64,000 nucleotides of DNA from Methanolobus sediminis. Lineage in GTDB: Archaea; Halobacteriota; Methanosarcinia; Methanosarcinales; Methanosarcinaceae. Below, piece by piece: positions 31,749-33,312 of this stretch. The translations under genes and the position numbers were made by a program. Location of the stretch: assembly GCF_031312595.1 (NCBI RefSeq), contig NZ_CP133592.1, positions 1,984,001-2,048,000 on the forward strand. The letters are read 5' to 3'. A model generated the notes under the pieces. The model saw only the letters and a list, made by a program, of their open reading frames with translations, was not told the origin of the DNA and did not search any database. Position 1 is the stretch's first letter. Every line of letters begins with the position of its first letter.

Positions 31749-31802
31749 ATGGGACTATACTACTGCACACCCATATTAATACTTGATTATCAGGCTGAGC
31801 CA

Positions 31803-31817: not shown

Positions 31818-31900
31818 GTCTATTCGTGCCTGATTATTGATGGAAGGGTTCGTCTTAATGCCTATGACGAACAAATAGGCTGATATAGAGGTGATTCTTT

Positions 31901-32023
31901 ATAGGCGCGTTAGAGATTGCATTTGCAATTATGTGGATTACATTGCTGGCGTATGCAGTATATGTTATTAGTTCCCGCAGAAAGCTGGTGCTTCAATGTA
32001 GTAAGACAGAAAATTTATCCTGA
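31901..32023 (+). CDS. CcmD-like small membrane peptide (start uncertain)
   Basis: An unlisted frame of about 40 residues: IGALEIAFAIMWITLLAYAV, then YVISSRRKLVLQCSKTENLS and stop. One membrane helix is followed by a basic RRK-L segment, with Trp and Tyr at the helix ends. This W-x-x-x-x-x-Y...RR-K-L layout matches CcmD, the tiny subunit of the System I heme exporter that helps release heme-loaded CcmE. CcmE begins 26 bases later. There is no ATG/GTG/TTG at the start of the helix: an in-frame stop is at 31892, GAGGTG (31888-31893) would serve an ATA at 31901, and the first ATG is at 31931 inside the helix. Confidence 0.5.
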   Translation: MGALEIAFAIMWITLLAYAVYVISSRRKLVLQCSKTENLS

Positions 32024-32049: not shown

Positions 32050-32430
32050 ATGGATAAAACACAAAAAACGATAGTTGCAGTTGCTTTCATTGCCGTTGTT
32101 GGTTTTGTAGGTCTCTGGAATGTTGACCTTTCACAGGGATATCATATGGTATCTGATATATCCCAGAACTCAGCGGAGTTTGTAGGGCATGATGTCAACA
32201 CAATGGGCATGATCAAGAATGGAACTCTTGATATTTCTACTGATGGCACTTTTTTTGCACTTCAGGATCTTGAAGAACCTTCTTATGAGATTTATGTGGA
32301 ATATACCGGTTCTCTCCCGGCCAATCTTGCAGAGGGGCAAAGTGTTAGTATAAGCGGAAAAATGCTTTCTCCAACCATGGTTGAAGCAAGCCAGATAGTT
32401 ATGAGTTGTCCTTCAAAATATTCAGAATAA
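32050..32430 (+). CDS. ccmE: CcmE heme chaperone, archaeal CxxxY type
   Basis: A 126-residue protein with an N-terminal membrane anchor (about 7-25) and a beta-barrel (OB-fold) domain facing the outside. It has the CcmE core motifs VGHDVNTMGMIKNG and ISGKMLSPTMVEASQIV. The heme-binding residue, His in bacterial CcmE, is replaced here by Cys120 in CPSKY (CxxxY), as in the known archaeal variant of cytochrome c maturation System I. It carries heme to apocytochromes c. ATG at 32050 with AGGGTG upstream is preferred over a GTG 9 bases earlier. Its place beside the heme genes and the CcmD-like frame is telling. Confidence 0.88.
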   Translation: MDKTQKTIVAVAFIAVVGFVGLWNVDLSQGYHMVSDISQNSAEFVGHDVNTMGMIKNGTLDISTDGTFFALQDLEEPSYEIYVEYTGSLPANLAEGQSVSISGKMLSPTMVEASQIVMSCPSKYSE

Positions 32431-32442
32431 ACAGGCGTGGTT

Positions 32443-33312
32443 ATGGTGCAAATAGAAGATCTGGACGAATATCAGCTGATTAAGATTGCCAAGGATGATA
32501 TAGTTCATTCTATGGATGATAGTTCCCAGATGAAAAAGATGCTTATGCACATATGCAGTTCCGGTGGAAAGAATATCCGTCCTGTTATGCTCATATTATG
32601 TACTGAAATGTGCGGGGGTAATTCTGCGGAAGGTGTCAAGGCTGCACTTGCGATTGAATTTATTCATTCTGCATCTCTTATTCATGATGATGTGCTTGAT
32701 GGAGGTCTTGTGCGTCGTGGTGTTGAATCAGCACACAAAAAATATGGAATCCCTGCAGCGATACTATGTGGTGATTTTCTTATATCCAAGGCAATATCTC
32801 TTATTTCCGGTTACGGAAACAATGCAGTAAATGAATTCGGTCGGGCTGGAATGTATATGGCTGAAGGTGAAACCATTGATATTTCAAGCGTTGATGATGA
32901 ATTCAGGGAAAAGAACTACTTTGAGTGTATTGGTAAAAAGACCGGTTCCCTTTTTGCTGCCAGTGCTGCAATAGGTGCTTATGTTGCAGAAGCGGATTCT
33001 GAGACTGCCAAAAAATTAAGGTCTTTTGGTGAAAATGTAGGTAATGCATATCAAATAGTTGATGACCTGCTTGAGTATCTAAATGAACTTGAAGATAAGA
33101 GTTCTACTTATGAATCAGTTACATTGCCTCTTATTTATAGAAGATCCATGGATCACGATAAGGCTGTAGAGAAAACTTTAGAACAGGTCCGTATTTGTGT
33201 TAAAAATGCAAAAGATATCCTTGCCACATTCCCACCTTCTGATGCAAGGAATAAACTGGAGTTAATAACTGACCTTATTACAGTAGATATGCTTCCTATT
33301 GATATCCTTTAA
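32443..33312 (+). CDS. Polyprenyl diphosphate synthase with altered second Asp motif
   Basis: A 289-residue trans-prenyltransferase. It shows GGKNIRP (41-47), the first aspartate motif HDDVLD (82-86, DDxxD), KKTGSLF (165-171) and a second motif changed to DDLLE (207-211) in place of DDxxD. Such enzymes extend isoprenyl diphosphates by C5 units. The altered second motif resembles the divergent long-chain synthases of Methanosarcina, where the pentaprenyl tail of methanophenazine is made; product length cannot be read here. It is 12 bases after ccmE and 35 bases before a radical SAM gene, suggesting a role in electron carrier synthesis. Confidence 0.78.
   Translation: MVQIEDLDEYQLIKIAKDDIVHSMDDSSQMKKMLMHICSSGGKNIRPVMLILCTEMCGGNSAEGVKAALAIEFIHSASLIHDDVLDGGLVRRGVESAHKKYGIPAAILCGDFLISKAISLISGYGNNAVNEFGRAGMYMAEGETIDISSVDDEFREKNYFECIGKKTGSLFAASAAIGAYVAEADSETAKKLRSFGENVGNAYQIVDDLLEYLNELEDKSSTYESVTLPLIYRRSMDHDKAVEKTLEQVRICVKNAKDILATFPPSDARNKLELITDLITVDMLPIDIL

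Follow-up and report, generated by a model that had tools for sequence, protein, structure and literature searches.

A ccmD-like gene upstream of ccmE in Methanolobus, probably initiated at AUA or AUU

Our analysis points to a gene for the cytochrome c maturation protein CcmD directly before ccmE in the archaeal genus Methanolobus, with ATA or ATT in place of its ancestral ATG. Positions 31901–32023 of the window (the whole stretch of 64,000 nucleotides of Methanolobus sediminis DNA analysed here) very probably constitute ccmD of System I cytochrome c maturation, the first gene of a ccmD–ccmE unit, initiated at AUA/AUU. We further advance, tentatively, a wider reading: these archaea would encode CcmD, and the genus-wide AUA/AUU start would be maintained by selection to attenuate ccmD translation, balanced by an extended Shine-Dalgarno (SD) sequence and possibly a leader hairpin, as an archaeal counterpart of infC-type control.

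Results

The ccmD frame and its conservation

The features of the ccmD–ccmE unit are as follows.

31901 to 32023, forward strand: ccmD coding sequence, 40 codons plus TGA, proposed start ATA at 31901, single transmembrane helix at about residues 6–24, acidic N side, basic C tail.
31901 to 31903, forward strand: codon proposed to initiate translation as AUA; most other genera have ATG here, and 27/27 Methanolobus species have ATA or ATT.
31888 to 31895, forward strand: extended SD GAGGTGAT, pairing over 8 nt with the 16S rRNA 3' end, 5 nt before the ATA; it holds an in-frame TGA (31892–31894) and an out-of-frame GTG (31891–31893).
32050 to 32430, forward strand: ccmE, heme chaperone (PF03100).
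32449 to 33312, forward strand: polyprenyl synthetase gene, directly 3' of ccmE; the neighbour of M. acetivorans ccmE is alike.

The frame reads IGALEIAFAIMWITLLAYAVYVISSRRKLVLQCSKTENLS and stops at the TGA at 32021–32023, leaving 26 bases to the ATG of ccmE at 32050. Its first in-frame ATG is at 31931, with no ATG, GTG or TTG ahead of it and a TGA in frame at 31892–31894. The peptide is about 40 residues long, with one transmembrane helix (19-residue hydropathy maximum 2.15 at residues 6–24) and a basic C-terminal side of charge +3. The initial annotation had described this 40-codon frame before ccmE, its upstream stop at 31892 and the lack of a standard start before ATG 31931; the description is accurate and every point was confirmed in the sequence.

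Every one of the 27 Methanolobus species searched has the peptide directly 5' of ccmE, and alignment of the regions upstream of ccmE in relatives showed it conserved in the same place. Approximately 60 other Methanosarcinaceae and related genomes carry it there, so placed at nearly every other Methanosarcinaceae ccmE locus examined and in related families too. At one locus (L062) the region upstream of ccmE is missing, the contig ending there, and in another (G032/L095) ccmE is broken and ccmD is degraded too. No stop interrupts the ccmD frame in any of the 27 Methanolobus species, whereas many of them have stops in the other two. Over codons 2–26 the ccmD frame has a median dN/dS of 0.28; the shifted frames reach 0.80 and 2.1. 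The open frame, the conserved peptide and the low dN/dS thus exceed what chance would leave, and the ccmD helix is under purifying selection; the ten C-terminal codons 27–36 are under looser constraint (dN/dS 0.67). The two observations on which the initial annotation had let its reading stand or fall, a conserved helix before ccmE in relatives and purifying selection on the frame, were therefore both made.

The non-standard start, which had been noticed in a single genome, extends to the whole genus. Since genomes sequenced independently show the same ATA context, and 27 species share a non-standard start context, sequencing error and a mutation private to one strain are excluded.

CcmD identity and distribution

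The NCBIfam model TIGR04391 (CcmD_alt_fam) was matched at E<0.1 by 25 of the 27 Methanolobus copies (best 2e-12) and by all 32 members of a family-wide set (best 8.8e-14). The window copy scored 18.7 bits (E 0.0013), below the curated cut-off of 24 bits; several congeners exceeded it (for example G022, 31.1; G025, 27.4; G026, 45.1). Across the phylum, 60 of 295 genomes matched at E<=0.01, 39 of them over the cut-off, and the best 30 loci all adjoin ccmE or ccmC. The archaeal peptides resemble TIGR04391 proteins in their length of about 40 residues, single helix, sequence and place beside ccmE or ccmC; they differ in that the Methanolobus copies have no ATG or GTG start and the window copy lies under the curated cut-off.

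Similarity to the classical bacterial profiles was weak and below both curated cut-offs in seven copies scanned singly, the best of which (L007) reached 13.7 bits against 25.6 for PF04995 and 17.8 against 25.95 for TIGR03141; Pfam on its own thus gives a weak CcmD similarity. The archaeal gene shares with bacterial ccmD a single-helix product with a basic C-terminal side, a place directly before ccmE and this weak profile similarity. In contrast, it is shorter, and ccmDE is apart from ccmC here. As established for the E. coli operon, bacterial ccmD lies between ccmC and ccmE. An archaeal locus of another family (L111) has the bacterial order, with a 250-aa membrane-protein frame, which may be ccmB, followed by ccmC, the ccmD-like match and ccmE. 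In the Methanolobus genome, ccmC and ccmF-type genes are located elsewhere; a search for a second ccmD near ccmC returned one other match, a weak one (E 0.35) that falls in a frame of 110 residues, far away from ccmC. Position, profile match and orthologues thus all support the assignment to CcmD made in the initial annotation.

Start codon and Shine-Dalgarno sequence

At the start-aligned codon, 21 Methanolobus species have ATA, six, forming one clade, have ATT, and none has ATG. Outside the genus, the assigned ccmD starts are ATG in 53 cases and GTG in 6; some of these genera start a few codons before the aligned position. In the alignment of all members, the outgroup Met stands over the Methanolobus Ile (MNAL/MEAF against IGAL/ISAL/INAL). 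Methanolobus is a single clade on the tree (support 100/99), within which the start codon changed once, from ATA to ATT. An in-frame ATG, GTG or TTG upstream of the ATA/ATT is absent in 22 of the 27 species, usually because of the TGA inside the SD, and in 17 of the 27 none occurs through codon 12 either.

The position does not behave as an ordinary isoleucine codon. For comparison, we took ten Ile codons of the neighbouring prenyl synthase gene whose residue is invariant: each changed 4–10 times and all use ATC, whereas the start position changed once and is never ATC; it therefore acts as a constrained start. In a simulation of neutral 4-fold sites, the probability of no G at any tip was 0.059, and that of neither G nor C was 0.001. 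Because the former value is marginal, avoidance of ATG by selection in Methanolobus is suggested but not proven.

The SD is strong. The 3' end of the 16S rRNA, read in the window as GGATCACCTCCT, is complementary to GAGGTGAT over 8 nt, and the longest match among 24 long window ORFs with SD-like sequences was 7 nt. An SD of 7–8 nt precedes ccmD in 19/27 Methanolobus species but in 1/59 elsewhere, counts that ignore shared descent. The spacing to ATA/ATT is 4–5 nt in 26 of the 27 species, the exception (L016) having a weaker SD. The genus thus combines, as infC does, an extended SD at normal spacing with the lack of an upstream in-frame standard start (22/27). The initial annotation had offered three ways of translating the frame: from ATA 31901, by a frameshift from GTG 31891, or from ATG 31931. 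The outgroup ATG at the same codon and the extended SD 4–5 nt upstream strongly favour the ATA.

Neighbouring genes and leader elements

Divergent from ccmDE are genes for a radical SAM/SPASM protein and two siroheme-decarboxylase-like proteins, which we read as an alternative heme pathway. Two elements lie between the divergent genes and ccmD.

31754 to 31792, no strand assigned: strongly conserved block ACTATACTACTGCACACCCATATTAATACTTGATTATC lying between ccmDE and the divergently oriented radical SAM gene, recognised by its conservation.
31848 to 31872, forward strand: hairpin in the 5' leader with a 7-bp stem (GTTCGTC/GACGAAC) and the loop TTAATGCCTAT; it covaries in one Methanolobus subclade.

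The block is a probable promoter region and possibly a shared promoter or operator; CCCATATTAA within it is also partly kept in other genera. The hairpin shows compensatory changes among Methanolobus loci L001–L013, with a nearly invariant loop TTAATG. In 11 sequences, 89.6% of cells were paired, with two-sided changes at 4 pairs, against 27–62% paired in slid controls, a count that leans towards pairing, the hairpin having first been spotted in these same sequences. No Rfam family matched the ccmDE leader, and that the hairpin regulates ccmDE is a guess. At 31859–31879 and its equivalents, a possible short upstream ORF (MPMTNK*) ends just before the SD; similar ORFs occur in many species of the hairpin subclade, and the hairpin sequence alone could account for them.

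Discussion

The strongest competitor to initiation at ATA, though itself very unlikely, is the frameshift from GTG 31891 raised in the initial annotation. We considered it in the form of translation that would begin at this GTG inside the SD and slip by +1 at CTT-T into the ccmD frame. A GTG does lie 10 nt upstream of the ATA/ATT in most species. It is out of frame in 22 species and, with one base fewer, in frame 9 nt upstream in the other five (L016, L018–L020 and L026), the difference amounting to two changes on the tree; L016 resembles a version in which the extra T has been lost, and in these five species the in-frame GTG could be the start. However, the GTG itself belongs to the sequence that pairs with the anti-SD, none of seven species inspected has a separate SD for it, and the outgroup ATG aligns with the ATA, not with the GTG. 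The bases before the ATA/ATT differ by clade (CTT-T, ATG-T, CTG-T), so that no slip site is shared, and where species of the ATT clade have GTG-AAC/AAT-ATG, a TAA closes the GTG frame within five codons. Neither a conserved slip site nor a start with its own SD, as expected of programmed +1 frameshifting, was found in Methanolobus ccmD, and we disfavour the proposal. Read-through would have to pass both a TAG and a TGA within five codons upstream in this species, and is likewise not favoured.

Two further explanations appear more improbable than the frameshift, and to a similar degree. Five members of the ATT clade, L021–L025, have a very short ORF, ATG TAT TAA, just after the SD; it overlaps ATT-AAC, so that its translation could be followed by re-initiation at the ATT. 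Yet in L027, also of this clade, CTG replaces the ATG, and the ORF is missing from the 21 ATA species, leaving the genus unexplained. The frame could also be a decayed, untranslated ccmD remnant, as its lack of a standard start codon and the loose constraint at codons 27–36 would allow; against this stand the absence of stops in 27 species, the helix dN/dS of 0.28, the conserved strong SD and the contrast with G032, where a broken ccmE comes with a visibly degraded ccmD. The third option of the initial annotation, a start at ATG 31931 (codon 11) within the helix giving a 30-residue peptide, is the least credible of all. Although this is the first in-frame ATG of the window sequence, an ATG at codon 11 is private to this species, relatives mostly having ACN, and codons 2–10 are conserved as protein.

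We therefore return to initiation at AUA/AUU. The ATG start of ccmD, which we take as ancestral, would have changed to ATA in Methanolobus and later to ATT in one clade, remaining non-ATG throughout the genus since. Extended SD pairing would set the AUA or AUU in the ribosomal P site, where the initiator tRNA-Met would read it despite the third-position mismatch, so that CcmD would begin with Met. Initiation at this codon would yield CcmD at a low, SD-dependent rate. The one-helix protein would be expected to bind CcmC and aid the release of heme-loaded CcmE. The AUA/AUU may be kept because it sets the amount of CcmD relative to CcmE, or because it allows control through start-codon discrimination by aIF1.

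A stronger SD paired with a weaker start is a known compensatory trend, and when 61,358 ancestral AUG starts were surveyed across bacteria and archaea, a single switch to AUU turned up, AUA being unmentioned in the text of that study (PMC5622118). The closest parallel is in Staphylococcus, where conserved AUA/AUU starts with extended SDs give approximately 10–30% of AUG output (PMC13009471). Its infC, ccpN and cvfC1 share with ccmD the AUA or AUU start and the extended SD, and the cvfC1 case is conserved among staphylococci. These are, however, bacterial genes subject to discrimination by IF3, whereas archaea use aIF1, and initiation was shown experimentally there but is deduced from sequence comparison here. 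It counts against reading of AUA/AUU that initiation complexes on non-AUG mRNA are destabilised by aIF1 in archaea (PMC6237735). Our literature search, mostly of openly accessible papers, found no described case of an AUA/AUU start in archaea.

Our results also bear on the streamlined archaeal Ccm system described in M. acetivorans, for which CcmD was stated to be missing from archaea universally, holo-CcmE being inferred to be released without it (Gupta et al., 2022 eLife, PMC9084895). The pathway is the same, and M. acetivorans ccmE (MA4149) was likewise reported to adjoin a polyprenyl diphosphate synthase gene (PMC9084895); the difference is that CcmD was called absent there, while we found a ccmD-like ORF in Methanosarcina. 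A Methanosarcina genome of 5,751,492 bases encodes, in an ORF of 34 codons, the peptide MEPFILAFAISWILIFAYLLSLLKTYAEFNKRLM 25 nt before ccmE, scoring 35.5 bits against TIGR04391 (L077:371-472; also L101), and this genome is very probably that of M. acetivorans. Among 14 named control genomes, M. acetivorans among them, three matched TIGR04391 at all and one exceeded its cut-off. Judging from these profile matches and gene positions, archaea of the Methanosarcinaceae group do encode CcmD, against the published universal absence.

This reading corrects the published statement that archaea are without CcmD, on which the CcmD-independent release of holo-CcmE in M. acetivorans had rested. Annotation pipelines demanding ATG, GTG or TTG would be expected to miss Methanolobus ccmD. 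The gene is a conserved, naturally occurring example with which to ask whether archaeal ribosomes use AUA/AUU as starts in vivo under strong SD pairing.
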